Assembly (NCBI RefSeq): GCF_024713945.1
Contig: NW_027461518.1
Span: 186,001 to 250,000 of the forward strand
Direction: 5' to 3'
Source of the DNA: Dermatophagoides farinae
Lineage: Eukaryota > Arthropoda > Arachnida > Sarcoptiformes > Pyroglyphidae
Length of the DNA: 64,000 nt
The notes beneath the pieces are model-generated. The model was not told the origin of the DNA. It saw only the letters and a program-made list of their open reading frames with translations, and did no database searches. Numbering within the stretch: the first letter of the stretch is position 1; every line of letters starts with the position of its first letter. Below are positions 9,193-64,000 of the stretch, piece by piece. The position numbers and the translations under genes are program-made.

Positions 9193-9807
9193 ATGGGGAA
9201 AAGAAAAAATCGAAAAGCTCCGCCTAAGAAAATAAAATTACGATTACAAAAAGAATTTGATTGCCCTTTGTGTTGTACAAAAAAATCTATCAAATTTCGA
9301 ATGTAAGTTTGCTACAAAAAAACGTATATTAGCAACCACCAGACGCGTACAGGGTGTTTGTTGTGCCAATATTGTGAAGCTACCTATTCAACTACCTTAG
9401 GACTGAATGACAAGGCGATTGACGTCTTTGCTGAATGGATTGATGTCATAAGCAACACAGCGCCCGTCAAGCTTCTGAACAAAGAAGACGGCACCGAGAT
9501 AACCAACGCGATACGTGAAAAGTCTCTTCCGCGTTACGCAGAAGGCATTGAAATAACACTGTGCTCGACCGACATGGCTAGGAAGGGCATGGCTGAGCGA
9601 TACAATTTGTCTTTAGACTCACCAACAGAAAAACGCTTTACTCCTCCTGTTCCTGCAGCTGTTCGAGAAAACAATGAGCCTTTACACGAGCAAGTTGAAG
9701 AAATGGAAAGTAATATTTTCAATAATAACAAGCTCAAGATAATAAACAATATTCCAAATATGTCAAACTTGTTCGAAAATGAACCTGAATTAGATATGAA
9801 ATACTAA
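9193..9807 (+). CDS. ELOF1: ELOF1/Elf1 transcription elongation factor, two exons, with C-terminal extension
   Basis: Exon 1 is 9193-9302 and exon 2 is 9333-9807, giving 194 residues. The start MGKRKNRKAPPKKIK is the basic tail of Elf1, which inserts in the Pol II-nucleosome complex. FDCPLCCTKKS and, after the intron, RTGCLLCQYCEATYST form the two CXXC knuckles of the family's zinc ribbon. AIDVFAEWIDVI matches the closing PxDVYSDWIDxC helix. Without splicing the frame stops at TAA directly after the donor. Human ELOF1 has 83 residues; here about 110 more follow, polar and with no domain I recognise. The extension is in frame and AT-normal, so I treat it as real. The core assignment is secure. 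Confidence 0.88.
9303..9332 (+). other. Intron, 30 nt (ELOF1)
   Basis: It runs from GTAAGTTTG to TATATTAG in phase 2, splitting codon 37. Splicing restores the zinc-ribbon frame, and reading through gives an immediate TAA. A different AG at 9342 would break the frame. Confidence 0.85.
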
Positions 9808-9815
9808 ATTCTAGT

Positions 9816-10700
9816 TTACGCCTGGTTTGTTTGTTTGTCGTTGCAGTCCTTGATGAACGCATCGTTGATGCAGTGCATCTTGTAAATTAAGTCGGTTACT
9901 TTTTCTGAATAAACAGGATGATCGTTTATTTCGTTTTCGTAAATTGATTCCGCTTCAATAAACTCATCGTCGTCAATTTCGAATGTTCTGAGCAATTTGA
10001 ATCGTAAATACAAAATTAAGATTGCAAAGTTTATTGTCATGTTTCTATCTTCCTTTGGAATTTCCTTCTTTAAACGCTCGTGTAGTTCTATGGAAGCTTC
10101 GATCTTTAATTCGTATAACTGTATTAGTTTATCTAGCGATATTTTTTCTTTTAACTCGTTTAGCGACGTAGAGCTTGACGGTATACCAGGTTGCAAAAGC
10201 TGGCTCAATAATTCGCTATACTCATCGTTATGAGGTGAATCCAAAAGTTTGGTTATGTCCTCTTCGGACAAACCGTACTCAATCAATACAGACTTAGGGT
10301 AGATCTCTTTTAATCTATAGTAGAGTCCTTTGATATCAATGTTATCATTCCCTGCCGATACTAATCTTTGAGTTTCAGTTTCAATAACCTCTTTAGCGGT
10401 TTTTCGTTCTTCAATTAGTGCATTGAGAATTTCAATCAGCTTTTCATTAGAAATGGTTTCTGATTTTTGTGAACACATAATGTTTTTTTCTTCGTGATTT
10501 TCAATACCATTTTTTTGATCTACCTTATTAGACTCGTTGTTGTTCTGAAGACTGTAAATTAAATTTTTCGCTTTTGTTAAGATCTTTGATGGAAGACTAC
10601 CCTCATCGTTAGATACTATAGTTGTGATAATGGTAATTCCAATCCCGATTGTCAAACAAGCTGCCAATATTTTGTTGCAGTTTTTCTTTAAATAAGTCAT
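9816..10700 (-). CDS. Membrane-anchored protein of unknown function
   Basis: 294 residues from ATG 10698-10700. One hydrophobic segment at residues 10-30 (ILAACLTIGIGITIITTIVS) follows a short lysine-rich start. This suggests an N-terminal anchor with the bulk of the chain on the other side. The rest is polar, charged and mostly helical by appearance, for example ELKEKISLDKLIQLYELKIE and a second helical block near 215-275 (MTINFAILILYLRFKLLRTFEI). No catalytic motif is visible, and I do not recognise the family. Its stop lies only 8 bases past the end of ELOF1 (convergent), and its start faces the CCp gene across about 150 bases. Confidence 0.6.
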   Translation of the reverse strand: MTYLKKNCNKILAACLTIGIGITIITTIVSNDEGSLPSKILTKAKNLIYSLQNNNESNKVDQKNGIENHEEKNIMCSQKSETISNEKLIEILNALIEERKTAKEVIETETQRLVSAGNDNIDIKGLYYRLKEIYPKSVLIEYGLSEEDITKLLDSPHNDEYSELLSQLLQPGIPSSSTSLNELKEKISLDKLIQLYELKIEASIELHERLKKEIPKEDRNMTINFAILILYLRFKLLRTFEIDDDEFIEAESIYENEINDHPVYSEKVTDLIYKMHCINDAFIKDCNDKQTNQA

Positions 10701-10848
10701 TTTGAAAAATTGATATGAGATTGAATAAATTATAAAAAAAATAATTTACGAGATAAAAAAATTTTTGATTTTATAATAAACTTTTCCTTTGATCAATGGA
10801 TTTTTTATTCCAATATCATTTTTAAACAATAATGTAAATTATATCTAA

Positions 10849-13800
10849 ATGTTTCATTTCTGGTTGCTTCTAACAATCGTTCAGTGTAGTGTTTTAACTA
10901 AAATTGAAGAGAAGGTCAAATATCGAAGCAGCCTGAATACCCTAAGTAATTTCAATGAAAGTGAGTGTTCGAACGTCGAAACCAATAGCTCTTGCGAAAA
11001 TCTGTTGAATCGAGGTACCAGTTCGTTTGTGGCCAGGTTGAACTACGTGGACGTCGTGTTGAAGAATAATCAGACGCGTCCAATTGAAAAAATAATAATA
11101 AAATTTGGATATAATTCCACTGGCAAAGTTAAGTTATTTATTCCTCACGATTCACCAAATGAAATACAGGAAAATACCGTGAACTCGGATGCTATCTCAA
11201 TAAGTTTCCCTTTGATGTTTACTAGGACCGTTAAACTGTCATTTTCTCTTAGCAATCGTGTAGTAATTAATTATGTAGCTCAATATGCTAACCACGATTC
11301 CCATTATGTAATAATCAATGGCTTACAGGCAACTACTTCTTCTGAACAATGTTTAATTTACAGACCCGAACTTAAATTACTGAGTCTGGCTCCGTGTGAA
11401 TATGCCATTGTCGAAGGATCAGACAACCATATCTGGCAAGTTGGAACAATAAACGACTATTTGTATTTAATGTGGAATAAAAAAGTACTAACTGTCAACG
11501 AAAGCAACAAACTCGTGTTAATGCCTTTGTTCGACGCTAAATCAGTTTTTGCATTCACTGAAACAGATGAAATTAGGCTCGTAGATTATAAACGCAAAAA
11601 CGACTCAGAACAGCAAGAATTAAACGAAAAAAATAACCACTGTTTAGTCCCTATGGGTAAAGGTGACTATATAACAAACAAAATGAACGAGTCAGTCAAA
11701 ATAGCAGCCTCCTCGTCTTTAAATTTTAAATATGACGCGATCAACGTTCGTACGTCTGACCCAAATGCTGTGTGGCTTTCTAATTATCTCGCTAATGAAG
11801 AAACGAAAGTTAGTTTATCCATTTCCGGTTTTGAGTGTGAAAACCCATATTCAATCGTTATTTACTGGAAGTATCCTGCAAAGTCTTTCAGCGTACACGG
11901 TAGAAAAGCTGAAAACGAGAAATTTGAGCATATTTATTCGGTCTACCAAAACGAATCCTTCATAACAACAATTCCGCTTTATCGTTGTTTTAAGGAGTAC
12001 AAAATTGAACTGAACAACACTCATCCTACTTTATCATATTTAGCTGAATCAAATTCTTATGCTTATGGGATCAAAGAAATCCGACTTCTGGAGTTTAATT
12101 TTTTGGTTGGAATTGAAGATTGCGACAAAATAAACAATAGTGATGCTAGAAAGTTTTGGTTCACTCAACGAATTTTGCTGATACAAGATAAAAATAGATA
12201 CAAAAAACTGATCTCGTGGTACGATAAACTATTTAAAAACCTAAATAATAAGGTCAGCGAATTAAAATCCTTGTCTCGAACAGCTAATAACTGTTTTAAG
12301 CAATTGGCCAAATTGGAAGACTTTATTTCCGTTTCTATGAACAAACTACAAGTTAACAGCATACAGTTCAAACTTAACCATGGCTCTTATAATAACCTTC
12401 CAATAAAATGCCCGGTAAAGCAGGAGGATATTCATAATAGGCAAACTAAACTTGTTCCTCTCGGGTTTTTCGATATAAAACCTTATCTGTCAACTACGAA
12501 TGATGCTACTCGAATAATATGTATGACAGGCTATGAAGGCATAACTTTTATTAAATTATATTCTTCTTCTTTCTACAACGCAATTTCTTCATGCCAGAAA
12601 TTGGGTTTGTTTCCTTTTCTATTTAATGGTGAAAACACGGAATATTTATTGAACGCGTTAAAATTAACTGATATCTGCCTAGAAAATCCTGAAACAACAA
12701 TTCTTCTAGCTTACAAAGTGAAAAATTCAGACCCTCACTTTCTAAATTTGATGGAAAAGCCTTTTCAATTCAATTATTTTCCTTTGAATCCGAAAGATAA
12801 ATATTTAGGGTTGTCTTGTCAAACTTATAAAATTTACTCTTTTGAGTCTTTAACCAATTTGTTTTATGCTGCTTGTCAAGAAGAAATTATAAAGCACGAC
12901 GTAAATACTGCTACCTTTGCTAGCTGCGACTCGTCTTTCGAAAAAACGTTATCTATTGCTCAAGACGAAGTACATAACGGCAAAATTAATAGATCACAAA
13001 TGAATAAACTTAAAATGCTGAAATGCTCTGTTTCCTGCGAAATTTCTGAAAGCCGAAAAATCTATTATGATTTGAAAAATAAAATTTATACTTTAGACAG
13101 TAATGTTTGCAAAGCAGCTAGACACAGTTATACTTTACCCCCAAATGGAGGTAGTTTGTATTTTTACGCAGAGACTGTGATGGTCAAAAACGCTGATTTT
13201 TCTAAATCATTTATTAAAAATGATATAATGGCACAACAAAAACTAAATAAACAAACTACAAATTTGTATGTTAAACTCAGTCCTGTTTTTCATGAGCTAA
13301 ACATTAACGATTTGCCAGTATCTGAAAAAAAGATTCAGAATGCTTCTTCGCATTACAGTATCGTTGATGATTCTTTATTAAGTTTACACGAATACGTTTT
13401 TGAGAAAGAACAGTTAAGTTATTATGCCAAAGAAGCTGCCAGAAGACTACTTAACATGCAAAAAGTTTATTTTCAATGGATTAATCGTGATCAATTGAGT
13501 TTCTTAGAGCACATATTGAAAAAGTCTTGGGTCGATTTGCTTATTGTAGTAAAACCTAACACGCATAAATCAGAACTAGTTAGTTCTAATTTAGGAAAAT
13601 TAATAAAAGTTTTGGACACATACGACGCCTCTCTAAGATTTAAAACTCAAGCCAATATGTATTACGTAACAGAACTAGAAAAAAAAATCAAACGTCTCTT
13701 AGTAAAAAAAGACCAATATGATGTCTCAAATTATGAGAGTTTAATAGAAACGTTTTTTAGAAATTACACCTTGGCGAGTATAGATTCTAACTATGATAAT

Positions 13801-15135
13801 TTCATTAGTGTAGAAAATTATATTGACAAACAAGTCAAAACTTATCTACCTTACCCATACAACGTATATCACAAAGTGCAGGTAAAACAGATAGCTTATA
13901 AAGATCCTAAAAGCGCATCTTCACTGCAACTTGTTATAAAAAGTAAAAAACACGATTCCACTGTGCTTAAATCACATCATAAAGATCTTGAAAGTATTTG
14001 GTTTGAACTGTTGCTGACTCATAAATCAATTTATAACGGTATTGTTGAAGCACAGTTTGAGTTTGACGAATCAAACAATACAAAACAAGAATTTGACTAT
14101 TTTGGAATTATTCTCAAGAAAAATCAGCTAAAATCCTTAGCTTTCTTGATTAGTAGCAACGGTTACGCAGGTTTTTACGAAGTTAAAAACAACAATATTC
14201 TTATTTCAAGAACCGTGAACAAGGTGAATTTAAATCTATGGCAAGAAAGAATTGTACAGATTAAAATCTTGATGTATCGCGACACATTTTACCCTAGAAT
14301 AACTCTGCTCGGACACGGAGAACAAAGTGAACGCGAGTTTCTCAATATGTCGTTAGACGCCCATCAAGACGAATATTTCTTACTTGGTTCTCCAGTAGGA
14401 ATTATTGCTCAACTGCACAACTATAAAGTAAAAGTTAATGAATTTTCGATGAACCCGGTTTTGTGTGACTACGATGTTCTTTATCTTATTGATAATCTCG
14501 TTTATAACAATGATAATAATAAAGAACAAAAATACTTCGACTCTTTGAGTGTAATATACCCGAAAATTTGTGCACGATTTTCCATGGGTTCAAGCATGGA
14601 TGATTTTGTTGTTCGTTCAGGAGATTGGACACTTAAATCGACAAAAACACTTTATGCTGAAAAGTTCAAACTTGTGCAAAATTCTATAAATATTCAGTCT
14701 AAAATACCACAACGAGTTTTCCTAAAAAAAGAAATTAGCTGCGCTGAAGGAAAGCTTAAATTTAATATAAAAAATAGCTGTTCCCATAACTCAGCGTATT
14801 TCGGTGTTCTATTACAGTTTGATTCTAAACAAGAATGCGGAGTGGAAATACTGTTCACTAAAAAACATGTCATTTTGAAAAAAGGTTTTGTTAATAAAGC
14901 AAACGCTCATCAAAAACTATTGTTTACTCTTGAAAATGTTGGATCCAGCCAATCGTCCCAATTATCAATTGTTTTTACAAAAAATACATATAACATTACT
15001 TATAATAATATGGTAATAAGATCAATAAAATTTGATGATGAAAAATTCGTGTGTGAAGGTCGAGAAGTTGGTTTCGAAACTAAATCTTGCAACAATTATG
15101 AATTTGAGGATATCCATTTATCGCCTTTAAAATAA
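10849..15135 (+). CDS. LCCL-domain CCp1/CCp2-like multidomain secreted adhesin
   Basis: 1428 residues in one exon with a clear signal peptide (MFHFWLLLTIVQCSV). By eye the order is a discoidin-like beta domain (about 60-155), a ricin-B-like lectin unit (about 165-250, with CEYAIVEGSDNHIWQVG) and a second discoidin/F5-8C-like domain (about 300-420). A cysteine-containing region (about 540-720) precedes an LCCL domain (about 722-795, with YTLDSNVCKAARHSYTLPPNGG). A concanavalin/laminin-G-like C-terminal half closes the chain. This architecture matches the CCp (LAP) family that is conserved across Apicomplexa, where members are expressed in sexual and sporogonic stages and form complexes. There is no membrane anchor. 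The LCCL motif is the firm anchor of this call; the other domains are weaker. Confidence 0.75.
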   Translation: MFHFWLLLTIVQCSVLTKIEEKVKYRSSLNTLSNFNESECSNVETNSSCENLLNRGTSSFVARLNYVDVVLKNNQTRPIEKIIIKFGYNSTGKVKLFIPHDSPNEIQENTVNSDAISISFPLMFTRTVKLSFSLSNRVVINYVAQYANHDSHYVIINGLQATTSSEQCLIYRPELKLLSLAPCEYAIVEGSDNHIWQVGTINDYLYLMWNKKVLTVNESNKLVLMPLFDAKSVFAFTETDEIRLVDYKRKNDSEQQELNEKNNHCLVPMGKGDYITNKMNESVKIAASSSLNFKYDAINVRTSDPNAVWLSNYLANEETKVSLSISGFECENPYSIVIYWKYPAKSFSVHGRKAENEKFEHIYSVYQNESFITTIPLYRCFKEYKIELNNTHPTLSYLAESNSYAYGIKEIRLLEFNFLVGIEDCDKINNSDARKFWFTQRILLIQDKNRYKKLISWYDKLFKNLNNKVSELKSLSRTANNCFKQLAKLEDFISVSMNKLQVNSIQFKLNHGSYNNLPIKCPVKQEDIHNRQTKLVPLGFFDIKPYLSTTNDATRIICMTGYEGITFIKLYSSSFYNAISSCQKLGLFPFLFNGENTEYLLNALKLTDICLENPETTILLAYKVKNSDPHFLNLMEKPFQFNYFPLNPKDKYLGLSCQTYKIYSFESLTNLFYAACQEEIIKHDVNTATFASCDSSFEKTLSIAQDEVHNGKINRSQMNKLKMLKCSVSCEISESRKIYYDLKNKIYTLDSNVCKAARHSYTLPPNGGSLYFYAETVMVKNADFSKSFIKNDIMAQQKLNKQTTNLYVKLSPVFHELNINDLPVSEKKIQNASSHYSIVDDSLLSLHEYVFEKEQLSYYAKEAARRLLNMQKVYFQWINRDQLSFLEHILKKSWVDLLIVVKPNTHKSELVSSNLGKLIKVLDTYDASLRFKTQANMYYVTELEKKIKRLLVKKDQYDVSNYESLIETFFRNYTLASIDSNYDNFISVENYIDKQVKTYLPYPYNVYHKVQVKQIAYKDPKSASSLQLVIKSKKHDSTVLKSHHKDLESIWFELLLTHKSIYNGIVEAQFEFDESNNTKQEFDYFGIILKKNQLKSLAFLISSNGYAGFYEVKNNNILISRTVNKVNLNLWQERIVQIKILMYRDTFYPRITLLGHGEQSEREFLNMSLDAHQDEYFLLGSPVGIIAQLHNYKVKVNEFSMNPVLCDYDVLYLIDNLVYNNDNNKEQKYFDSLSVIYPKICARFSMGSSMDDFVVRSGDWTLKSTKTLYAEKFKLVQNSINIQSKIPQRVFLKKEISCAEGKLKFNIKNSCSHNSAYFGVLLQFDSKQECGVEILFTKKHVILKKGFVNKANAHQKLLFTLENVGSSQSSQLSIVFTKNTYNITYNNMVIRSIKFDDEKFVCEGREVGFETKSCNNYEFEDIHLSPLK

Positions 15136-15298
15136 GTGCTATTTAATTTTATACAAAAAAATTTCAAGTGTACGATTAAAGCTATTTTGCTTTGTTTTTG
15201 CTTTTATTTATGGTAGGTTTGAAAGAACAAAAAAGCATTTGTTTTTATTGAAAGCAAAAGTTAAAATATTTTATCTCATGAACTAATACGTTAAATCA

Positions 15299-16924
15299 AT
15301 GAAAAAAATTGAAAAACTAAAAGAGACTGATATTCTTAAAATTAAAGCAGGCTGCTTATATCGGTATCCATCTGATATTCTGAAAGAACTAATAGAAAAT
15401 TCACTCGATGCGCAATCAACTAAAATCGAAATTCTTCTTGAATCAGGGGGTTACGACTTAATTCAAGTAATTGATAACGGGGTGGGAATTCCAAAACAGA
15501 TATCTGAAAAGCTGTGTTATCGAGGCTTTACAACTAAACTAGATGGAGATAAAAATAATTCATTGGGTTTTAGGGGGGAAGCTTTAGCATACTTATCAGT
15601 GCTTAGCGACCTGACAGTTCAATCTAAACACGTTGAAGATAATGAAGGTTGGGCTGCTAGTTACAAAGAAGGGGCACGAACAGTATATTCAACTAGTTAT
15701 CAGCAACAAGGTACAATTGTGATCGCTAAAAATTTGTTTAAAAATTATCCAGAAAGAAAAACATTAAATGCTAGAGGCGTGAAAAAATCTATCGCCATGA
15801 TAATAAATCTCGTCAACAACTATTTTTTGCTAGCTGCTAATGTATCATTATACGTTGACGTAAAAAATTCTGAAAGCATCCTTAGAAAGAATTTGTTGTC
15901 TTTGCCAGCATCGTCTTCAATTTATAATCGAATTAGAAACCTTGTATCAGATTACGACTCTATTAACTGCTGTGACAATATTGATGAAAGTTTTTTCTGG
16001 GGGATTATAAATTGTTTGGCAGAAGCACAGTGTAGCCAAAGCAAGTTTATATTAGTCATTAACGGAGCTGTTAGAATTTGGCCTGAGCTCCAAAGCAAAA
16101 TTATGGCATTAGTAGAGTCGTATCGTAGCGCTGCGACTAAGTGTCACACGTTTATCTATATTAATATAGAAGTGGACTTGAACCTCATTGATAAGAATGT
16201 CGATGCAAATAAATACAGGATAATAATAGAAGACGCTGATTTGATAATCAACCATATAGTCGGTCAATTCGACCTTTTGATGCAAAGCAAAGCTAATTCT
16301 TCACAGTTATCAATTGATTCTGATGTGATACAAAAAAATCTTCGTCTGGAAGATGTTTCACAAAGAAACAAAAGCGAAATACAAAAAGATATTAAGTCGG
16401 ACCTAGAAAACTTGGATAAAATAAAACAAGATCTACTTGCAAATACAAATTTGTCTTATTCAGACTACATGTACATAGGAACCTATGATCTTCTTGAATA
16501 TTTCATTGGCCACAAGCTTACTATCATTATACTTGATGCTAGAGACTTGGTTTGTTTATTAATAAGCAAATCTTTAAGACGCAATGATCTTGAAAAAACT
16601 GTTAAATTAGATCTGGAACGCAATCTTACGATTGACGTACCTTACATGAAGATAGTTGATAACACATTGCACGCAGTGCCGTTGTTTTATTATGAAACAG
16701 ATTTAGACCTGTTTATCAATACGCTAAGACAAAACTTAAATTTTTCTCCGTTTGAATTAACACTTAAATATATTATAGGTTTATACAACAAAGATGAATT
16801 CAGAAAATTGGGTAGAGTTTTGTGGGATAATTTTTCTACTTACTTACTAAACTCTCAAATACCACTTAAATTCAAACTTTTCCCAAAATTGAAGGAAATA
16901 CTAAAAGAATTTGAACGCTGTTAA
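15299..16924 (+). CDS. MLH1: DNA mismatch-repair protein MLH1
   Basis: 541 residues. The N-terminal GHKL ATPase motifs are intact: KELIENSLDA (residues 29-38, catalytic Glu and Mg-binding Asn), DNGVGI (59-64) and GFRGEAL (90-96). The chain ends KEFERC. A terminal FERC is specific to MLH1 among MutL homologues, and its cysteine completes the endonuclease site of the PMS partner. The protein is shorter than human MLH1 (756) because the linker between the ATPase and the dimerisation domain (about 340-400) is brief. The family motif IAAGEV appears as IKAGCL. MLH1 with PMS nicks DNA next to mismatches marked by MutS proteins. The 3' end overlaps the EMC6 coding sequence on the other strand by 24 bases. 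Confidence 0.9.
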   Translation: MKKIEKLKETDILKIKAGCLYRYPSDILKELIENSLDAQSTKIEILLESGGYDLIQVIDNGVGIPKQISEKLCYRGFTTKLDGDKNNSLGFRGEALAYLSVLSDLTVQSKHVEDNEGWAASYKEGARTVYSTSYQQQGTIVIAKNLFKNYPERKTLNARGVKKSIAMIINLVNNYFLLAANVSLYVDVKNSESILRKNLLSLPASSSIYNRIRNLVSDYDSINCCDNIDESFFWGIINCLAEAQCSQSKFILVINGAVRIWPELQSKIMALVESYRSAATKCHTFIYINIEVDLNLIDKNVDANKYRIIIEDADLIINHIVGQFDLLMQSKANSSQLSIDSDVIQKNLRLEDVSQRNKSEIQKDIKSDLENLDKIKQDLLANTNLSYSDYMYIGTYDLLEYFIGHKLTIIILDARDLVCLLISKSLRRNDLEKTVKLDLERNLTIDVPYMKIVDNTLHAVPLFYYETDLDLFINTLRQNLNFSPFELTLKYIIGLYNKDEFRKLGRVLWDNFSTYLLNSQIPLKFKLFPKLKEILKEFERC

Positions 16925-17305
16925 ACGATTTTTAACGTCCAAATTCTTAAACATATCTTTATTGTAAGCTTGCTTTATGTTGTAGTTTATGATCCACATG
17001 ATGAAACAAGTTTTTAACCCGTTCAAGACTTGCAACAAGATGGTCGATAATAAAATGGTACGTTGTTTGGGATAGTAAAAGTGAGTTATTAGCAAAAGTA
17101 AGCTTATGGTCCAAACAGTTCCAATTATATATATCAAAATAAAGTCTGTGATGCGGGTGACATCCATGATGCCAGCAGCTGTTCCCGATATGATAGCATT
17201 TAAATGCAATCTATAGCTTAGTGTTTTGTTAAACACTTACGCTGCTGCGATGTTGAGTTCATTATTGTTCTGATTTACAGAATCTATCCACCTTTCTGTT
17301 GGCAT
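16901..17305 (-). CDS. EMC6: ER membrane complex subunit 6, two exons
   Basis: Exon 1 is 17305-17241 and exon 2 is 17210-16901, giving 124 residues starting MPTERWIDSVNQNNN. LNAIISGTAAGIMDVTRITDF aligns with the EMC6 signature SGATAGILGLTGLYGF. Hydrophobic helices follow (ILIYIIGTVWTISLLLLITHF, then TILLSTILLQVLNGLKTCFIMW) in the family's arrangement. EMC inserts tail-anchored and multi-pass proteins in the ER membrane. The ORF that starts at an internal ATG inside the intron would lack the conserved N-terminal segment, so I prefer the spliced model. An alternative acceptor at TAAG would shorten the intron to 24 nt and add two residues, also in frame. The last 8 codons overlap MLH1 antisense. 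Confidence 0.8.
17211..17240 (-). other. Intron, 30 nt (EMC6)
   Basis: On the minus strand it runs from GTAAGTGTTT to CTATAG, phase 2 after codon 21. The unspliced reading stops at once (GCG TAA). A second possible acceptor (TAAG, position 17217) gives 24 nt in the same frame. I choose 30 nt because the other introns here are 27-30 nt. Confidence 0.75.
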
Positions 17306-48207: not shown

Positions 48208-50148
48208 TTATAGATCCGAGTATCGGGCGGTGGCTCTAAAGCTCACGGAACGAGATTTATTTTGTAAATCCTTTCGCGGTTCGTCCCAATCACGTCCTGA
48301 CATGGGATTAGACAGCTGGACAGGGCGTTGACGGCGTGACGACGATAATAAATTGCTAGATTCCTTATTTAGTGTGCGCTTACGTCGAATTATATAGTCA
48401 GAGCACTCGATCATGCAAATTAGGGCTGAGTACTTATCGACGTCAAAGAATTCATCTGCTAAAACTGCATAACTCTTTTGTATTAAGTCATTTAACAAAT
48501 TCCTGTGTTTATTTTTGATGTGTTTATGTACGAACTCAGCACCTCTAAACATTTTTCCACACACCTCACACTTGAATCGCTCTTCACACTCTTCGAAAGT
48601 GTTCGCCAAACAAATATCGTTCCAGGTCGTTTTAATCAGTGGGTGAGACTCGCTCATCGGAGTAATCAGATTTTTTAAATTCCACTTGAGGATTGTCTCG
48701 AACCTATTAATGAGATTTCGTCGAGCGAGCTCGGTTTGTTCGTATTGCGGACGCTCAAAGTTTTCGCAACGCACGGAACAGTAGCCAGTAACCTCAAAGA
48801 AAGCTCTGCCGGAATCAAACAGTCTTCCTGTGTAAAAGTCAAAATTATGTACGGTGCGCAAGTAAACAATGCAAAGATCGAGTTTTTTAATTATATCTAA
48901 TGTACAACTTTTAATAAAATCATAAAAAACAGAATTAGGTAAGTTTGCGTCGTCGGTCGTTTCGTCATCAATATCTTTGAAAGACTCCTCAGTTGTTTCT
49001 GTGGTTAGTTCATTAAAGTCTGAAGAAAGTACGGATTTTGTGTTTTCAGAATTTTGAGCTTTAGCATCGCTACTTTGCAATTCTCGATCAGTGTTGGAGG
49101 TTGTACTGGTTTGAATGCAGCTCAATGTATGTTTGTACTTGTCGTTGAGAGGATGCAAATAAAACTTATTAAACGTTTTAATCAGTTGTTCTGCATAGTT
49201 TAGATCGGTAATAATTTGAGCTTCGGACGAGTACTCTTTGACAAGAGTAATTTTCGAAAGCTTCGCGTCGGACTCTTGCAACTGCTGCGGCTTTGGCATG
49301 TTTATCGCGCTAATCGTCAAAAAAGCACAGTTTATAAGCATCTTAGAACGAGTTTCGGCGTCAACAAACTCAACGTACACATATTGAGTGGGAACCAGCG
49401 ACAAGTTGTCGGAGTTCAGTGAGCGCGCTGAGCCGGTCAATGAAACACGAACGTAACATTCGCTTATGAGACGAAGCATTTCGGTTTGGTTTTGATCCGG
49501 AAAGTCTTTAATGTCCTTGCTCAGCAAGGGGTACAGTTTGGAAAAATAATCGTCCGTGAGACAGGAGGGAACGACGTGAAGCGCGACAAAACCGGGTAAT
49601 GCCTCGAAAGTCGAAATGAGATCTGCTTTTTTGATGTAAGGCGAAACATGCTTAAAAACCAGGGTTGAATCCAAGTATGCCGGGCGAGTCCCGAAAAAAC
49701 CAGCTGACGCCAGATCCAAGTTCAGCTTGCAGGCTGGGACCGTTCCTATATTTACACAAGACGTGTCTTGAAACGAGATCATATGTTCTTTCGCAAGCTG
49801 GTTGTACGTCTGGGGTAGAGTCAAAGACAAATCGTTAAAAACTCCGTTTTCGACGTCGGTGTAAAACTTTCGGTCTGCTTCGATGTAGGCTTTCTTTGTG
49901 GAATATAGCCGACTTCTAAAGGCGTCCGGAAAGTAATCTGTGAAATACCTAGCGTTGCTGTTGAGCAGTGAATGCATGTTTTCACGCTGTTTCAACACTC
50001 GGAACTTTTGCTTATAGGCTTCATATAACTCCACGCCTTCGTGAGGCGTCAAAGATTCCGGTTGGAAACGAATAAAATCCTTGAAAGAGTTAAAGCATTG
50101 GTACAGCGCAGCTATGTTTATATCACTTGAAACAACATGATTGGGCAT
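48208..50148 (-). CDS. ARS2: SERRATE/ARS2 RNA-processing factor
   Basis: 646 residues. The C2H2-type finger FKCEVCGKMFRGAEFVHKHIKNKH (about 522-545) matches the ARS2/SERRATE finger [22 protein letters not shown] almost position by position; here the first pair is C..C, as in a standard finger. N-terminal ESLTPHEGVELYEAYKQKF corresponds to the family's helical DUF3546 region. An RRM-like segment is possible (about 170-290), and an acidic low-complexity insert lies near 345-395. The C-terminus is Arg/Ser-rich. ARS2 links the cap-binding complex to RNA decay, export and 3'-end processing. Its gene is convergent with the ABCB gene. Confidence 0.8.
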   Translation of the reverse strand: MPNHVVSSDINIAALYQCFNSFKDFIRFQPESLTPHEGVELYEAYKQKFRVLKQRENMHSLLNSNARYFTDYFPDAFRSRLYSTKKAYIEADRKFYTDVENGVFNDLSLTLPQTYNQLAKEHMISFQDTSCVNIGTVPACKLNLDLASAGFFGTRPAYLDSTLVFKHVSPYIKKADLISTFEALPGFVALHVVPSCLTDDYFSKLYPLLSKDIKDFPDQNQTEMLRLISECYVRVSLTGSARSLNSDNLSLVPTQYVYVEFVDAETRSKMLINCAFLTISAINMPKPQQLQESDAKLSKITLVKEYSSEAQIITDLNYAEQLIKTFNKFYLHPLNDKYKHTLSCIQTSTTSNTDRELQSSDAKAQNSENTKSVLSSDFNELTTETTEESFKDIDDETTDDANLPNSVFYDFIKSCTLDIIKKLDLCIVYLRTVHNFDFYTGRLFDSGRAFFEVTGYCSVRCENFERPQYEQTELARRNLINRFETILKWNLKNLITPMSESHPLIKTTWNDICLANTFEECEERFKCEVCGKMFRGAEFVHKHIKNKHRNLLNDLIQKSYAVLADEFFDVDKYSALICMIECSDYIIRRKRTLNKESSNLLSSSRRQRPVQLSNPMSGRDWDEPRKDLQNKSRSVSFRATARYSDL

Positions 50149-50366
50149 TGACCTTAAAGTATAAAATCGCCACCAACAGGTCTAAATTTAATTTTATGAA
50201 AATTACCTCTGGAAATTGCTGTTTTAAAAAATAAGCAAATTCTGCTAAAGTCCAAAAAAATAGTAATAAATATAAATTTATGTTTATATATTACGGACAA
50301 AGATTTGATTAGAGAATGTTCCTGATGTGACCAGGTTTTTCACTAAGTGTTTACAAGTACATTTAA

Positions 50367-52727
50367 ATGGAATATGATTCGTCTGTAGAAAACGAAATTT
50401 CTGTCTTACTTTTAAACGAAGGAAATGTCGATTTTACGATAGAAGAAAAATTTTTAATTCCATGCGACATTTTCCGCTCAAGTAAAAGCGAATTCGAAAA
50501 CCTGGCAAATTTGATTCCTGTGGTAGTCAAAGTGTTTGAAAAGGCTGATTACTATGAACAGCTTTTAGCGCATGAGTTCCAGCTACAAACTGAAAAATCC
50601 ACTGTCAGAGACGCTTTGATGTATTATAAATTTTCCAAAAACTTGAGCTTTGGACTCAGTTTGTACGTCCTCGTCAGAGCTATAAGTAAGTTTCCAGTCA
50701 GCTACAAACTTTGGAAGCACCTTCTAGAACTCATACTATTGCACGGAGCGACTTACTTGCAGTACCTGCCTTTATTTCACAAAATTTTTCAGCTGAGCTG
50801 GACGTCCATGCAAGACTTTCCGGTCATACTTCTACAGTACCCCCAATTTACATATTACGTTTTGAAAAACATCGCTTTGACCTACAACTTGTACAATTCT
50901 CTGCTAAAAATAGTTCCAGTCGCGCAGCACGAGATGTTAATCTGGCCTGCTATATTTAGGTTCGCGGACGAGACTCAAATTTTATCACTGAAGCTTTGTT
51001 ACTTGTTTCGGTACATTATTGTGTATCGGCACCGAGTAGACACATTAATTGCTTGTTTGCACCAAATACCAAACTTAAAAGACGTTGTTAACTCACATAA
51101 ACTTTTAGAAAAGTTGGCTGATTCGATCGACTATGTCACTGAACCTTACTTTTTACGGTATATTTATGCTCTGGCAAAACTCGACAGAAAAATGGCTATT
51201 TCTGCGATCCAGTACGGTGTTAACAAGTTTCCGTCCCTCTCCGTCGACTTGTACGAACTTGAGCTCAGTATTTACCAAGATAACGAGGAGCAGCTACTTT
51301 TGACTTGCATTAAAATATTATCGTCTTTAAAAGATGAGGACAAATTTGAACATTTCGCAGAAACATTTGAACGAATTCTTCGCAACAATTCTGATCTTTT
51401 CAATCAGTGTTTGAATATGATAAAGATAGACAACTTAAGTAACAATATACAAGATGTCGACTCTTTAATAGAATATTCTCTCAAAACCTTTAAACTCAAA
51501 CAAAGAATCGATGAACCGCTTAGTTGGATCAAATACATTTACTTACTACATAATATTTCTAGCGTTTTAGAAGCGACGCCTGACAAATTAACGTCGATTT
51601 CGCAAATTTTTAACGCCGCCATTGGCTATTTGAAACCTTGCGAAACTACTGATTATTTTGTGATTTGGGCGGAGTACATCAATTTGCTGAAGTTAAACAA
51701 CCAAAAAAGCGAGGTTAGTAAACTGTTCGACCAAGCAAAAGAAATTCTTCCGAATTCTGTGTTTTTTCAAGGCCAAATCAAACTATTAGAGCTGGAACTA
51801 CAACTTGCTGATAATCCAATCTCTGAAGTCTATTCAGACTTGAATAAAAATTTGTCTTCGTACACTTCTCACGCCAATCTCTATAAAAAATCTTTAGGGA
51901 TCAATTTGCTAAAGGTGGACCTAGAACTAATGCTTGGAAAACATGACAAATTTGCTGAAACAGTGGCTACACTTGTGAATGCGAAACTAGCCCCGCCTTC
52001 ACTTCTCAACAGCTTATTAAACAAATTGATTAAGCTAGAAATGTACGATGAATTTTTTTCCATTTGCTCAAACTTTGTGTTCAAATATTCCAACGAAAAC
52101 ATAGGTCCAACATATTTGTTTTATCTTACTGCATTCGTCTCCAGATACAAGAACAAGAAGATAGAGCAAACTCGCTATTTGTTTCGACAGGCTTGCGAAC
52201 AGTTGGACCCAGAACACAGGCGTTATGTTTTGTTTATTCAAGCTAAATTTGAGTTGGAGTTTGGTATTTATAAATTAGCTCTCAATGCGTTTAAGAAAAT
52301 CATTGACTACTCAGCAAAGAAAGAAGTTTTCAAGTCTTACGCTCTCATGGCAAAATATTGCTCAGGTAAAATCGATTTGGAGTCCCTGATCACTGAGATA
52401 GAACCGTGTCTCAATAGTGTTCAAGATTTCGACTATCCCAAAGCGCTTGTTTTGTTGTCTAAGCTTTATTTTTTTAAGAACGAAGCCCGCTACACCGATT
52501 TTCTTTTTACCGACGGTGTGGCAGTTCTTTTACAGCTGTTACGCAGCGATAAGTGGCGGTTGTCCGATATTGAACAAAAGAAAGAAGTAATTCAATATGC
52601 AGACATGTTTTTCAAGTTGTGGCAGGGCTTCTTGTCCAAACAAAAAGACTCAATAAAATTAATGGCCATCGTTAAAGCACAACAAGATTACAACACATTA
52701 ACTTCAATCTATAAAAAAATATCCTAA
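50367..52727 (+). CDS. SYF1: SYF1/XAB2 pre-mRNA splicing factor (HAT repeats)
   Basis: 786 residues made of half-a-TPR (HAT) repeats. ALMYYKFSKNLSFGLSLYVLVRAISKFPVSYKLWKHLLE matches the SYF1 segment with LPxSYKLWxxYL. Near the C-terminus, FVSRYKNKKIEQTRYLFRQACEQLDPEHRRYVLFIQAKFELEFGIYKLALNAFKK aligns with the XAB2/SYF1 FIxRYGGxKLERARDLFEQAL...LYLLYAQLEEEWGLARHAMAVYERA block. SYF1 is a scaffold of the Prp19-associated (NTC) complex in the spliceosome. This retention is consistent with an active splicing system despite few introns. Sister HAT proteins (CLF1, PRP6, PRP39) fit less well. One exon. Confidence 0.75.
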   Translation: MEYDSSVENEISVLLLNEGNVDFTIEEKFLIPCDIFRSSKSEFENLANLIPVVVKVFEKADYYEQLLAHEFQLQTEKSTVRDALMYYKFSKNLSFGLSLYVLVRAISKFPVSYKLWKHLLELILLHGATYLQYLPLFHKIFQLSWTSMQDFPVILLQYPQFTYYVLKNIALTYNLYNSLLKIVPVAQHEMLIWPAIFRFADETQILSLKLCYLFRYIIVYRHRVDTLIACLHQIPNLKDVVNSHKLLEKLADSIDYVTEPYFLRYIYALAKLDRKMAISAIQYGVNKFPSLSVDLYELELSIYQDNEEQLLLTCIKILSSLKDEDKFEHFAETFERILRNNSDLFNQCLNMIKIDNLSNNIQDVDSLIEYSLKTFKLKQRIDEPLSWIKYIYLLHNISSVLEATPDKLTSISQIFNAAIGYLKPCETTDYFVIWAEYINLLKLNNQKSEVSKLFDQAKEILPNSVFFQGQIKLLELELQLADNPISEVYSDLNKNLSSYTSHANLYKKSLGINLLKVDLELMLGKHDKFAETVATLVNAKLAPPSLLNSLLNKLIKLEMYDEFFSICSNFVFKYSNENIGPTYLFYLTAFVSRYKNKKIEQTRYLFRQACEQLDPEHRRYVLFIQAKFELEFGIYKLALNAFKKIIDYSAKKEVFKSYALMAKYCSGKIDLESLITEIEPCLNSVQDFDYPKALVLLSKLYFFKNEARYTDFLFTDGVAVLLQLLRSDKWRLSDIEQKKEVIQYADMFFKLWQGFLSKQKDSIKLMAIVKAQQDYNTLTSIYKKIS

Positions 52728-54035: not shown

Positions 54036-54750
54036 ATGAACGTTAGTAACTTATTCCTCAAAGGTAAGCAACAGTAAAAATGTATTTGCAGCGTTCAATG
54101 AACAATTGTTTGAAGGCTTTAAAATTTTAAATATTAACGAATTAACAGGTTCATGGATCGAAACTAATAAGCCAGAGGAAAAAATCAAAGAAATACTAAA
54201 CAAATTGGGTATTTCGGGAATAAAACGCCGTTATATTCTCAAAACAAACAACAAAGTCGTGCTGGCATTTCAGGAAATTCCCAATCATAAAGAAAAAAAT
54301 ATCAAACTGTACGATGAGACTGAGACGGGATCGACAACCGACGATGTAGACATTAGTTCTGCAACACTTAGTAACTTTTTTTCCCCGAAAAACATCAACG
54401 AGCAGCAGCAAATCTGCTACATCAAGCAATATTTCCCGATGAAAAAAACGCTCGAGCTACAATTTCAAACGGGCCTCTCTGACCCAATCGACTGCGAAGA
54501 TGACTACATCGGGGTTTGGTCTTGTCATTCAGTTATCATCAATAACATATTGTTTTGCCGTAGATACTCACAAAAGATGCAACTCATCGCTTATGAAATT
54601 CGCTGTTGCATCTCTACGCCAGAAGAGCTCAAAAAATTCACGAATAGTCCTAAAGTGCAGTTCTTTCACTGGTTGATAGAGGACAACACAAAGAAAAACT
54701 CGGACCTAGAATGCACTTTTTACTTAGTGCCTGAATCATCCGCTGCTTAA
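54036..54750 (+). CDS. Hypothetical protein, two exons
   Basis: Exon 1 is 54036-54063 (only 9 codons plus one base, MNVSNLFLK) and exon 2 is 54092-54750, giving 228 residues. The continuous frame of exon 2 has no ATG at its beginning, which supports the upstream exon. The chain is hydrophilic with several beta-like stretches (YILKTNNKVVLAFQEIP, CYIKQYFPMKKTLELQFQTG, YIGVWSCHSVIINNILFCRRYS, QLIAYEIRCCISTPEEL). It has the look of a compact beta-barrel fold, but I cannot name a family. No signal peptide or membrane helix. It converges with SPM1 (83 bases between stops). Confidence 0.65.
54064..54091 (+). other. Intron, 28 nt (hypothetical gene)
   Basis: It runs from GTAAGCAACA to TTTGCAG in phase 1 after codon 9. 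Reading through gives a TAA within five codons. Splicing joins the ATG exon to the long open frame that otherwise has no ATG. Confidence 0.75.
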
Positions 54751-54833: not shown

Positions 54834-55430
54834 TTAATAAAACTTTTTAGATATCTTATCGTAAAAGACGTGATTAATACCCGGAGCTGGGCAGGGCGGC
54901 TTTGGAAGCGATTTAGCGGGACAAATCTGCACGTCTTGTCCTCTGTATACATCTCTAAAGGTTGTTGTACCGTGGAGCGAATCAACCCGAGCGGACGGAT
55001 CGTCAAAATCTTCAACCCTGGTAATAGGCGGTCTGGGTGCAGGAACGTGTCCGCTATATACAGATCTGAACGTCGACTCTGGCTGCGGACCGGTTTCCGG
55101 TATTGAAAACCCTACTCCGTGAACCGCGTTTTCATACGCGGTGTTAAAATCGTGGTTGTGTTTGTTTGTGTCGGGTATGAATCCTTTGTACGCTTTGTTA
55201 AAAGAAGATTCACCTTCGAATCTATAATCTTTCGCTGGAGTTGGGCATGCGTGGCGTCCACAAACACAATATTCATGGATACACTTCCCAGGTTGACCTG
55301 ACGGAGATTCTAATCTGTGCTTCTCATCGAGCGTCGTGAAGACGCTATTTGAGGAGTAAACAGGGTGTAAACTAACAGTGGTTCTCGCTTCAGAAACTTA
55401 CTCGTCAAAAGAAGAATTTAAGTTACACAT
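54834..55430 (-). CDS. SPM1: SPM1/SAXO-type subpellicular microtubule protein, two exons
   Basis: Exon 1 is 55430-55402 (29 nt) and exon 2 is 55371-54834, giving 188 residues starting MCNLNSSFDD. The N-terminal block CIHEYCVCGRHACP (40-53) is the Cys-rich Mn motif C.C..C.CGRH.CP shared by SAXO1/FAM154, MAP6 and Toxoplasma SPM1. It is followed by spaced microtubule-binding units such as ESSFNKAYKG (64-73), ESTFRSVYSG (108-117) and TTTFRDVYRG (145-154), with proline-rich linkers. SAXO proteins bind in the lumen of stable microtubules. SPM1 does this along the subpellicular microtubules of Toxoplasma. It is shorter than the Toxoplasma protein. No ORF of this frame starts with ATG unless the intron is removed. 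Confidence 0.85.
55372..55401 (-). other. Intron, 30 nt (SPM1)
   Basis: On the minus strand it runs from GTAAGTTTCT to ACTGTTAG in phase 2 after codon 9 (GAC GA|). The unspliced reading stops at once (GAG TAA). Removal joins the ATG exon to a 178-codon frame that carries the conserved Cys motif. Confidence 0.85.
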
Positions 55431-56694: not shown

Positions 56695-56785
56695 TGCAGT
56701 CAATAAAACTAATATTCTCTATGTAAATAAATCACTTTTGTAAAATACCAAGTCATTATGAATTCATATCTAAATAAACACAAAT

Positions 56786-58309: not shown

Positions 58310-58374
58310 TATAAGCAAACTTTGAGGTATAATCCAAAAATTAGTCTAATTAGAAAATTAAATGTATAATAAAG

Positions 58375-58893: not shown

Positions 58894-59001
58894 CGTTTTT
58901 TAGAGTATTCGCGGGACATTGGCTATTTTACTAGCTTGATATATTTAGTATGATTATTTCTTTTAGTGCAATATTTAAATTGGAAATAAAAAAATCTCGA
59001 C

Positions 59002-60345
59002 TCAATCTAAATCTAGTTTTTGGCCTTCCATAATTTCCCAGATGTCAATCACTTCTTGAGTAGCTTTTTCAAAATGACTCATCGGGTCTAAACTATTTGT
59101 GACGTAAATGTTATCCTGTTTAGTGGCGCTGGCTACTTCGTACAAATCCGTTATATAAACAAATTGTTGCTCTATGTCTTCCAAAAACGACAGCGGAATT
59201 TTGAGTTCTTCCAAAGGATTTTCAGTTTCAACAATTGAGCTTATGATGCTCAAATATTTACCTTCCGGACAAACCCCAAATTCGCTACCTAGCACAACAA
59301 GATAAACATCATTTTTTCTTTTTAGTTGTTTTTGTGAGAAGATAATTTGACAAGAATTACTGTTGTTCGTTTCCTTAATACTATGATTTAAAATATTGAT
59401 TACTCGAATAACTTTTTGAGTTTTTTTCATTGGGATATTCTTGTCGATATAATGAACATAGTTAGGTGAACATATCAACTTGTCACAAGTAATCAGCTGT
59501 CCATTGTTAAATTTGACTCCTTTAATTTTCTCATTTTCGTCTGTAACAATCTTATTAATTTCTGCTCTTAATACAAAAGTTCCACCATGTACGGCACAAA
59601 GCCTCGAAAATCCTTCTGGTAAAGTAGAAAGACCGTATAAAGGATAAATAAACGGAGATTTTCCATATTTTAATACTGACCTCATATACAACGTCAATTT
59701 TGGAATAATTACACCGAAAGGTTTGTTCAAATATTCGTCGTTGTACTCCAACGCTACGGCGTGACCTACAAAATCTCTAATATTTGGATTCAAATTATAT
59801 TTGTTGTAGACGTATTTCATCAAATCTGATCTCGGATTAAAACCTCCGAACGTGGCAGGGTCTTCTGCTCTCCAATTAGCAATCAAACGAAAAAAGTTTC
59901 TTCCTCTCAACTTCTCGGTTAAAGGTATTAATCCACTACTCAATATCTCTGTTTCAGAAGAAGGAATCCGGTGTATGGAATTTTTAAATCCTAACCAGGA
60001 ACTGGTTGGCTGGTAAACAAACGCGTCATTTACAACACTAAATTGGATATAATCTTTTACTTTAGTTTTTAGTAAAATTTTAACAAGTTTACCATTGGAC
60101 ATGATAAATTTGGGAATTAGGTCAATGTTCCAATCTCGATTATTACCCCATTTTGCAACGTCGTACTCGATTGATTTATTAAATTTTTTTATCATGCTAT
60201 TCAAAGACAAGGAGGCAGCTTCACCACCGTAGTAATCATTAATATCTAATTGCAATACTTTTTTTCCATTCGAAGAAATCAAACCACCCAATATAGCTTC
60301 TTTAAAACTAGTTCCACAAATTATTACGTCATAATGGCTATTCAT
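59002..60345 (-). CDS. GDI: Rab GDP-dissociation inhibitor
   Basis: 447 residues, the usual GDI length. It opens YDVIICGTSFKEAILGGLISSNGKKVLQLDINDYYGGEAASLSL, the GDI/REP flavin-like motif. RDWNIDLIPKFIMSNGKLVKILL, YKVPxxxxEALxSxLxxxxEKRR in the variant form RIPSSETEILSSGLIPLTEKLRGRNF and YIYPLYGLSTLPEGFSRLCAVHGGTF are also family blocks. The lengths of the inserts fit GDI and not the longer Rab escort protein. GDI extracts prenylated GDP-Rab from membranes and recycles it. With the TBC protein, it gives two Rab regulators in this part of the window. Confidence 0.95.
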   Translation of the reverse strand: MNSHYDVIICGTSFKEAILGGLISSNGKKVLQLDINDYYGGEAASLSLNSMIKKFNKSIEYDVAKWGNNRDWNIDLIPKFIMSNGKLVKILLKTKVKDYIQFSVVNDAFVYQPTSSWLGFKNSIHRIPSSETEILSSGLIPLTEKLRGRNFFRLIANWRAEDPATFGGFNPRSDLMKYVYNKYNLNPNIRDFVGHAVALEYNDEYLNKPFGVIIPKLTLYMRSVLKYGKSPFIYPLYGLSTLPEGFSRLCAVHGGTFVLRAEINKIVTDENEKIKGVKFNNGQLITCDKLICSPNYVHYIDKNIPMKKTQKVIRVINILNHSIKETNNSNSCQIIFSQKQLKRKNDVYLVVLGSEFGVCPEGKYLSIISSIVETENPLEELKIPLSFLEDIEQQFVYITDLYEVASATKQDNIYVTNSLDPMSHFEKATQEVIDIWEIMEGQKLDLD

Positions 60346-60492
60346 TTTCTAAAAACTTTAGTTTGACGGTTATTTACTCAGAATAATTTTAGTTCGAATA
60401 TACTCTAAAAATATCAAAATATAAACCCTTATAATCAGTTAATATTTTGAATTATTTATATATTAATCGAACTAAGCTGACAGGTTTGTCTC

Positions 60493-62835: not shown

Positions 62836-62846
62836 TAACTACGAAA

Positions 62847-62984
62847 ATGTCTGAACTTGGATTGGACCCATATTCGATGGCTTACGAAAAGAGACACCAT
62901 AAATTCATTTTTTTCTATTGGATTCGTTTTGAAGATATTAAGAATGGCACACAATATCTCTTCGATACAATCCGAACAAATTGA
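62847..62984 (+). CDS. Possible small ORF, 45 codons
   Basis: The frame begins ATG TCT GAA 12 bases after the UCS stop and reads MSELGLDPYSMAYEKRHHK... to DTIRTN. Composition is protein-like with an aromatic cluster (FIFFYW) in the middle. A second frame on the same bases gives MAHNISSIQSEQIEE..., so there may be a spliced or frameshifted gene, but no GTAAG donor is present. It might equally be 3' UTR. I recognise no family. Confidence 0.25.
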   Translation: MSELGLDPYSMAYEKRHHKFIFFYWIRFEDIKNGTQYLFDTIRTN

Positions 62985-63120
62985 AGAGTTTCTCCCGATG
63001 CTTACTAATTCTCAAAAATAAAAATTAAAAGAAAAAAAAAATGGCCGTTTGGACAAATAAATTCAGAGTATTTCGAATTTAGCGGATTTTTACTTTCTGC
63101 TTTCAATTCGTTAAACATGC

Positions 63121-63717
63121 ATGGGTAGAATCAAACGAGTTCGTAAAATTCAAAAAATACTTAAAAAAACTGATGCCAGAGTAAGCGATAATCCTAGTAA
63201 TTTTGTTGGGCAAAATGTTCCGGTAAAAAAACTAACAAAAGAGGAACAACAAAAGAAAGACGGTGTTGTGTACACTGAAGAAACACCTGCTTGTTTGTTT
63301 TTCAACGCAAACTTGAACCTAGGACCTCCTTACCATGTTTTGCTCGATACCAACTTCATTAATTTTACCATTCAAAATAAAATTGATCTTTTTCGCGGAC
63401 TTGTTGACTGCTTTTTGGCGAAATGTGTACCCACAATCTCTGACTGTGTCGTGGGCGAGCTTGAAAAGATGGGCCACCGTTATCGAATGGCTCTGCGTAT
63501 TGCAAAAGATCCTCGTATAAAACGCTTGACTTGTGATCATAAAGGCACGTATGCAGATGACTGCATCGTCCAAAGAGTTACGCAACATCGCTGTTACATA
63601 GTTGCAACAAATGATAAAGAGCTTAAACAACGAATCAGAAAAATTCCAGGTGTACCTTTAGTATCGATTCAAAATCGTCAATACAAACTTGAACGTTTGC
63701 CCGATGTAGCTTTATAA
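63121..63717 (+). CDS. FCF1: FCF1/UTP24 PIN-domain pre-rRNA endonuclease
   Basis: 198 residues, the family length. PACLFFNANLNLGPPYHVLLDTNFINFTIQNK, KCVPTISDCVVGELEKMGHRYRMALRIAKDPRIKRL and HKGTYADDCIVQRVTQHRCYIVATNDKELKQRIRKIPGVPL are nearly colinear with human FCF1. The acidic PIN residues stand in LLDTN, GELEK, YADDC and TNDKE, so the active site is intact. Utp24 cuts the pre-rRNA at sites A1 and A2 in the small-subunit processome. The N-terminus is a basic helix (MGRIKRVRKIQKILKK). A run of ten A lies about 85 bases upstream. Confidence 0.97.
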   Translation: MGRIKRVRKIQKILKKTDARVSDNPSNFVGQNVPVKKLTKEEQQKKDGVVYTEETPACLFFNANLNLGPPYHVLLDTNFINFTIQNKIDLFRGLVDCFLAKCVPTISDCVVGELEKMGHRYRMALRIAKDPRIKRLTCDHKGTYADDCIVQRVTQHRCYIVATNDKELKQRIRKIPGVPLVSIQNRQYKLERLPDVAL

Positions 63718-63796
63718 AAATTTTAGAAATATCAAATTTATATTTTATTTTTATTTGTTTGGCGTAGTCTCTGCTTATCACGACACACAGTGAACG

Positions 63797-64000
63797 ATGA
63801 GTTTGCAGTCTTTCAAGCCAATGCACAACTATCTTTTAGTTAAGCCGTTAAATGTTAAGAAATCGTTATTTCTGATTAACGACAGTGATGACTCAGAACG
63901 CTTCCAGCTAGCTGAAGTAAGTAAAATCGAAAAATTACTTTAGGTTGTCAAAACTTCTCACCAGATTACCGATATAAAACCCGGCAATAAGGTTTTAGTT
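63797..64000 (+). CDS. CPN10: Cpn10/HSP10-type co-chaperonin, 5' part
   Basis: Exon 1 is 63797-63916 and exon 2 starts at 63944 and runs off the window. NYLLVKPLNVKK is the opening strand of Cpn10 (DRVLVKxxE), FQLAEVV is the AEVVAVG strand, and DIKPGNKVLV matches VKxGDKVL. The mobile loop that docks on Cpn60 is normally 10-15 residues long with (G)GI.LP. Here it is reduced to KKSLFLINDSDDSE, and the roof segment between the second strand and DIKPG is also short. The protein begins directly with the domain, so a cleavable transit peptide is not visible. Mitochondrial or mitosomal location is a guess. Confidence 0.65.
63917..63943 (+). other. Intron, 27 nt (Cpn10)
   Basis: It runs from GTAAGTAAAA to TACTTTAG, phase 0 after codon 40. 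Although it is a multiple of three, it cannot be read through, because its last three bases are an in-frame TAG. Splicing joins LAE to VVK, restoring the AEVV strand. Confidence 0.8.

Follow-up and report, generated by a model that had tools for sequence, protein, structure and literature searches.

A narrow class of introns of about 28 nt on apparently apicomplexan contigs within the genome assembly of the mite Dermatophagoides farinae

Introduction

The stretch of DNA considered here, referred to as the window, comprises 64,000 nucleotides (nt) of the assembly deposited for the mite Dermatophagoides farinae (contig NW_027461518.1, positions 186,001 to 250,000 of the forward strand). Five genes of the window are interrupted by segments of 27 to 30 nt that start with GTAAG and end with AG, and these segments appear to belong to a narrow class of very short introns of spliceosomal type. 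The class is concentrated on a set of small contigs that appear to derive from an apicomplexan associated with the mite, and the window is accordingly discussed below both as a source of unusual introns and as part of a mite assembly.

The introns of the window and their genes

A sequence-only reading of the window had placed five introns with lengths of 30, 30, 28, 30 and 27 nt, and their positions, starts and ends all proved exact. They lie in the following genes, with distances from the start given as the number of whole codons preceding the intron.

9193..9807, plus strand: Elf1-like transcription elongation factor gene with two exons
9303..9332, plus strand: intron 1, 30 nt, after 36 codons of this Elf1/ELOF1-like gene; recovered de novo
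17211..17240, minus strand: intron 2, 30 nt, after 21 codons of a small EMC6-like membrane protein gene at about 16901-17305
54064..54091, plus strand: intron 3, 28 nt, after codon 9 of the gene at 54036-54750; recovered de novo
55372..55401, minus strand: intron 4, 30 nt, after codon 9 of the gene at 54834-55430; recovered with trained weights
63917..63943, plus strand: intron 5, 27 nt, after codon 40 of the Cpn10-like gene; recovered de novo
63797..64093, plus strand: Cpn10-like gene, extending beyond the end of the window

Two of these junctions are crossed by a Pfam profile. Positions 1-77 of the Elf1 profile span the junction at 9303, with a score of 68.4 bits for the spliced product against 27.3 for the downstream exon, and positions 2-93 of the Cpn10 profile span that at 63917 (23.3 bits spliced, 14.0 for the exon alone). 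The intron at 17211, whose removal eliminates in-frame stops, is the weakest of the five, with frame and motif as its support. The EMC6 domain of Pfam does not extend across its junction, the match lying downstream and scoring 17.9 bits spliced and 18.7 for the exon alone with a cut-off of 23.3, and it was missed by the self-trained de novo gene finder, which recovered the other four. At 55372, the finder picked a shortened version of 18 nt when AG was the sole requirement placed on the acceptor. A Pfam search gave no informative domain for the genes interrupted at 54064 and 55372; the product of the latter looks similar to SPM1/SAXO-type microtubule proteins.

The poverty in introns proposed for the remaining genes was borne out, as 29 of the 32 genes predicted wholly within the window lack introns (spurious mini-genes at the 17211 locus make up two of the 29), and only 29 of the 156 genes predicted in 264 kb have an intron of 22-40 nt.

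Recovery of the intron class above chance

The 264-kb sample consists of the window and its flanks (C15:96001-360000, in the contig labels explained below), and gene finding in it relied on a codon-pair model trained on 99 long open reading frames (ORFs) and a Viterbi gene finder that left the length of introns free inside set limits, with no length preference. Plain GT-AG gene finding without shams was abandoned; it yielded 32 introns of very mixed lengths, and motif shams were therefore adopted. In the first run, with GTAAG as donor, AG as acceptor and limits of 15-120 nt, 27 introns were found, 21 of them of 25-32 nt, whereas each of 59 sham pairs, built from permuted pentamers, a GA acceptor or both, gave 0-3 introns in that range. 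The largest sham, which combined GTAAG with the acceptor GA, returned 23 introns in total but just one of 25-32 nt.

The second run used learned splice-site weights, GT...AG ends, limits of 15-300 nt and no length prior. Its yield over the 264 kb was 51 introns, of which 36 measure 22-40 nt and 31 measure 27-31 nt, while the means of 24 permuted-donor shams were 4.8 (maximum 9) and 1.25 (maximum 4), respectively. A second class of longer introns was considered and rejected: introns of 41-300 nt were no commoner in the real run (15 in the 264 kb) than in the shams (mean 18.4), and no such class was detected up to 300 nt. A model-free count led to the same size class, since the spacing between GTAAGT and a following TTAG peaks at 26-32 nt, with 29 cases observed against 7.1 expected.

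When ten sequence pieces were searched, 41 of 58 predicted introns measured 22-40 nt, five of these 41 being located on the contigs C14, C17 and C19, where one (25 nt) sits in a doubtful gene fragment. Retention of 40 of the 41 would disrupt the reading frame or introduce a stop codon, and only 8 have a length divisible by three; the finder favours frame-breaking introns, and both figures may in part be a product of the method. The predicted proteins were also compared with Pfam, using 20 spliced products, some of them shortened, drawn from 34 genes that contain a short intron (33 of them predicted, the other being that at 17211). A domain above the cut-off crosses the junction in six of the 20, namely Elf1, Cpn10, Thioredoxin, PTPLA, Dopey and EMG1, and splicing raises the Thioredoxin score from 42.8 bits for the exon alone to 47.6 and that of Dopey from 34.0 to 47.5. 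The proposed class of spliceosomal-type introns of about 28 nt is thus supported by a recovery well above that of the shams.

Intron anatomy and splicing signals

Further description was based on a curated set of 37 introns, made up of 36 of the 41 short introns (five with an unusual donor, acceptor or length were dropped) and the intron at 17211. Their median length is 29 nt with quartiles of 28-30, the most frequent lengths being 29 (10 introns) and 28 (9), and the class as a whole ranges from 26 to 37 nt. The donor GTAAGT is nearly fixed, with A at +3 in 40 of 41 introns, A at +4 in 37, G at +5 in 38 and T at +6 in 38, in a set that had been seeded with GTAAG. At the other end, TAG is found in 33 of 37 introns and CAG in 4 of 37, a pyrimidine at -3 having been a condition of selection; among all 41, position -3 is T in 33, C in 5, A in 2 and G in 1. 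The acceptor is mostly TTTAG, and T dominates from -3 to -6, positions that were weighted in the finder. An upstream AG would have to be skipped in 14 of the 37 introns.

The interior is marked by adenines. Positions -10 to -12 are enriched in A (60 of 111), the value at -12 reaching p 0.002 before correction for 17 positions, and every one of the 37 introns has an A within -13 to -7.

A U1 small nuclear RNA gene was found on C18 with 72.8 bits (cut-off 69.5). Its 5' end reads AAACUUACCUG, complementary to GTAAGTTT, and is unlike that of the mite U1 genes on C7, which start with AUACUUACCUG. The GT-AG ends and a donor complementary to the C18 U1 are those of U2-type introns, the gene being assigned to the same organism through its contig. 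A compensatory change between this variant U1 and intron positions +7/+8 was examined as a candidate and set aside for want of significance (T at 36 of 74 positions, p 0.15). On C16, a stretch of RNA recognition motif (RRM), a common domain, resembles the large subunit of U2AF with 88 bits, against a whole-protein cut-off of 310.

Among the parasite's own genes in the window, one for a Syf1/Crooked-neck-type splicing factor (50367-52727) adjoins an ARS2-like gene (48208-50181). On the mite contig C7, the U1 genes are arranged as two oppositely oriented pairs separated by some 90 kb (2.79 and 2.88 Mb), with a transposase-like ORF beside them.

Position within genes and density

The 31 introns of 27-31 nt are distributed over the quarters of the coding sequence, from 5' to 3', as 19, 5, 2 and 5 (Kolmogorov-Smirnov p 1e-5). 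The sequence-only reading had located all introns within the first 40 codons, which is true of the five in the window but does not extend to the larger sample, where 18 of 31 lie at most 40 codons from the start. As this compares with 4.6 expected under a uniform distribution, the 5' bias is real, though not universal. It is compatible with the loss of introns through reverse-transcribed mRNA that had been suggested; 7 of the 31 introns sit in the 3' half of the coding sequence. The density amounts to about 30 introns per 156 genes, and the true value should be somewhat higher, since the finder misses some introns (one of five in the window).

Origin of the DNA

The assembly (D. farinae GCA_024713945.1) contains 62,435,336 bases in 22 contigs, labelled here C1 to C22, with the window on C15. 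C1-C10 (58.8 Mb) were taken as the ten mite pseudochromosomes, and C22 (14,266 bases), in which cox1 and cytb could be read by eye, looks like the mite mitochondrial genome. C15 is one of eleven small leftover contigs, C11-C21, that together measure 3.59 Mb. The sequence-only reading had taken the window to represent a genome of its own; it very probably lies instead on a cobiont contig within a mite assembly.

Samples from C14, C16, C18 and C20 show dense long ORFs and a GC content of 36-37%, unlike the mite, while another stretch of C18 has 28%. CCCTAAA repeats, that is, telomere repeats of the TTTAGGG type, begin C14 and C16. A thioredoxin reductase encoded on the leftover contigs scores 556 bits against PDB 4b1b and 425 against the best mitochondrial TrxR2 entry, and it shares the tail CGGGKCG with 4b1b; a RabGDI has its best match in PDB 3p1w (445 bits; next 394). 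4b1b, 3p1w and the ribosomal entry 3j7a are Plasmodium proteins, and 4v6w is of animal origin. AP2 domains are encoded on C19, C16 and C14; C11 has a match below the threshold, and C1-C10 gave none. Thioredoxin reductases with a C-terminal CXXXXC and proteins with AP2 domains are defining features of the Apicomplexa, and both the Plasmodium-type reductase with this motif and AP2 proteins occur on the leftover contigs.

The intron motif itself separates the two groups of contigs. The pattern GTAAGTN{17,20}TTTAG was searched over the whole assembly, with a spacing of 40-43 as sham. Of 203 matches, 60 fall on C1-C10 and 143 on C11-C22 (30 on C11, which measures 645 kb, at least 10 on C12 and the other 103 on the rest of C12 and C13-C22), whereas the 112 sham matches divide into 96 and 16 (Fisher p about 1e-22). 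The motif is some 40-fold denser on C11-C22 than on the mite chromosomes. A control with the reversed pattern exceeded the pattern itself (706 and 695 matches against 95 and 108), an excess taken to reflect the base composition of the mite, and the contrasts between contigs and between spacings were used instead.

In the light of these data, C11-C21, which make up some 3.59 Mb of the assembly, seem to consist of DNA from an apicomplexan cobiont that the contamination filter did not remove; the authors of the assembly report filtering against microbial RefSeq (PMC11074847). A literature search covering titles and the beginnings of abstracts, with subscription papers mostly outside its coverage, returned no description of an apicomplexan in D. 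farinae, and no such organism was reported in the covered parts of publications naming both 'Dermatophagoides' and 'gregarin' (including PMC8595220).

The reading of C14-C21 as the whole parasite genome was dropped, given that C11-C12 share the intron class and C15 has no telomere repeats at its ends (the repeat is absent from the outer 500 bases on both sides). C11 differs in its samples, with 26.5% GC in 200 bases and first 300 bases that are rich in CCTAACC and contain only two CCCTAAA. As it is nevertheless dense in the intron motif, it perhaps represents a second related organism or a join.

Some further observations concern the biology of the cobiont. An ORF of 634 codons in C16:100001-103000 contains DGIDFDWEYPG and reads like a family-18 chitinase, a notable enzyme in a parasite of arthropods. 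At 10849-15132 of the window (plus strand), a secreted-looking protein of 1428 amino acids has an LCCL match of 20.1 bits, under the cut-off of 22.6, and is reminiscent of apicomplexan LCCL/CCp proteins. The 264 kb including the window contain no tRNA gene detectable by ARAGORN and no Rfam family at the cut-off.

Interpretation and alternatives

It is very probable that the short segments are ordinary U2-type spliceosomal introns compacted to a narrow length class, and that their host, an apicomplexan and most probably a gregarine, carried them in its nuclear genome while it lived in or alongside the sequenced mites. Direct observation covers the intron class together with its motifs and spacing, the concentration of the class on C11-C22, and the apicomplexan affinity of proteins from the window and the contigs. 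In such introns, base pairing of U1 with the near-invariant GTAAGT would mark out the intron, one of the adenosines in the A-rich region some 7-13 nt before the 3' end might act as the branch, and a short U-rich run ending in UAG would serve as the 3' splice site. Recognition may then proceed in one step by intron definition, because little room is left for separate stages. Preferential loss of 3' introns or retention of first introns for a function is the probable reason for the 5' concentration, and the data do not discriminate between them.

A number of results weigh against this interpretation. With TACTAAC as the branch-site reference sequence, no branch-site consensus was found in the 37 introns, as 163 of 500 shuffles reach the best TACTAAC-like score. 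Position 2 of the C18 U1 would pair with a U at intron position +7, where T is present in only 19 of 37 introns (p 0.16). In 14 of the 20 spliced proteins, no Pfam domain extends across the junction, RNA_pol_Rbc25 being counted among them with a second matched stretch outside the displayed alignment, and the intron of the EMG1 gene ends in AAAG, so that its acceptor may be misplaced. Matches to U2 and U6 were obtained on C6, C3 and C10 only, with none on C11-C22, and an SF1-HH match on C1 only, again with none on C11-C22; the cobiont contigs form an incomplete genome, which makes these absences weak evidence. RPS4 was uninformative as to origin, with 298 bits for its best PDB match, 4v6w, and 288 for 3j7a. 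Finally, the short-intron class is confirmed as an observation, while its splicing is deduced from genomic DNA.

That last point leaves room for the view that the segments are coding insertions, chance GTAAG...AG strings or assembly indels turned into introns by the fitting of gene models, and this view can appeal to the shams, in which the finder always places some introns (on average 4.8 of 22-40 nt), as well as to the intron at 17211 with its motif and frame. It is very unlikely, given 0-3 introns in the shams against 21 for GTAAG, the disruption that retention would cause in 40 of 41 cases (which the method favours), and the gain in domain scores on splicing for Elf1, Cpn10, Dopey and Thioredoxin. 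Equally improbable in our judgment, and if anything a little more so, is an origin in the mite itself, for instance by horizontal transfer on a large scale or as an unusual chromosome of its own: the contigs were indeed deposited within a mite assembly after a contamination filter, but their gene density and GC content differ from the mite in the samples taken, and TTTAGGG-type telomere repeats, AP2 domains, a Plasmodium-type thioredoxin reductase, a U1 of their own and the 40-fold density of the intron motif speak for another genome.

A more serious alternative, although an unlikely one, accepts the apicomplexan cobiont but places it outside the gregarines, as a piroplasm-, coccidian- or adeleid-like organism whose intron class arose independently of that in the gregarine Porospora. 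Introns of 20 bp in the piroplasm Babesia microti, as cited in PMC9250747, would agree with this, as would the lack here of the conserved adenine described for Porospora and a GC content of 35% as opposed to 54%. In favour of a gregarine, the length class is nearly identical to that given for Porospora in the same source (PMC9250747), and an 18S amplicon from the mite Caparinia was assigned to a gregarine (PMC6321676). Starting from the preferred interpretation of compacted introns in a gregarine, a bolder and rather doubtful extension may be formulated, in which the spliceosome handles only this size class, with no longer introns and no fixed branch adenosine, the contigs give a first partial view of the genome of a house-dust-mite gregarine, and U1 has changed from U to A at position 2. 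If true, this would be a lineage where the 5' splice site and a 3' UAG at near-fixed spacing carry nearly all of the recognition.

Significance and comparison with known systems

If the assignment of the contigs is true, about 3.59 Mb of the assembly of an allergen-producing mite is parasite DNA, and gene lists, candidate allergens and claims of horizontal transfer derived from it need checking, a practical consequence that may outweigh the intron finding. For the study of splicing, the cobiont offers a natural system with few, tiny and mostly 5' introns in which to ask what minimum of sequence a spliceosome requires.

Very small spliceosomal introns that are functional also occur in ciliates such as Nyctotherus, Paramecium and Stentor; these belong to a different phylum, and their tiny introns presumably have a separate origin. 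Babesia microti, with introns of about 20 bp as cited in PMC9250747, is likewise an apicomplexan with tiny introns, but it is a piroplasm, its introns are shorter, and a branch adenine at a defined place has been reported for it.

The closest parallel is provided by Porospora, a gregarine of lobsters, and the comparison with gregarines and piroplasms made in the sequence-only reading was apt in that Porospora gigantea has the same size class. The intron class is in this respect already known, from a 2022 publication (PMC9250747). According to it, the small introns of Porospora cf. gigantea A and B form a class of 25-30 bp with a median of 28 [27-30] bp and a mode of 28, and account for 71-72% of introns in genomes of 54% GC and 84% coding sequence; in genome A, 2957 of 5270 genes have introns, at 1.8 each (Table 1), and an adenine is strongly conserved 6 bp upstream of the 3' acceptor. 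The class there also has a donor and acceptor consensus of its own (Fig. S5), the corresponding sequences here being GTAAGT and mostly TTTAG. The cobiont agrees with this description in length (median 29, quartiles 28-30) and in being gene-dense, with a predicted coding share of 87% in the sample against 84%. It differs in its GC content of 35%, in having a short intron in only 29 of 156 genes, and in showing no excess of introns of 41-300 nt. The fixed adenine of the Porospora account is likewise not seen here (A at -7 in 15 of 37 introns and at -8 in 12 of 37, with an interior A frequency of 0.35), its place being taken by a broader A-rich zone at -10 to -12. What is new is therefore a second apicomplexan with this class, at a very different GC content and at roughly a fifth of the intron density of Porospora, and the sharing of the class across such different base compositions suggests that the size of about 28 nt is not a by-product of base composition.

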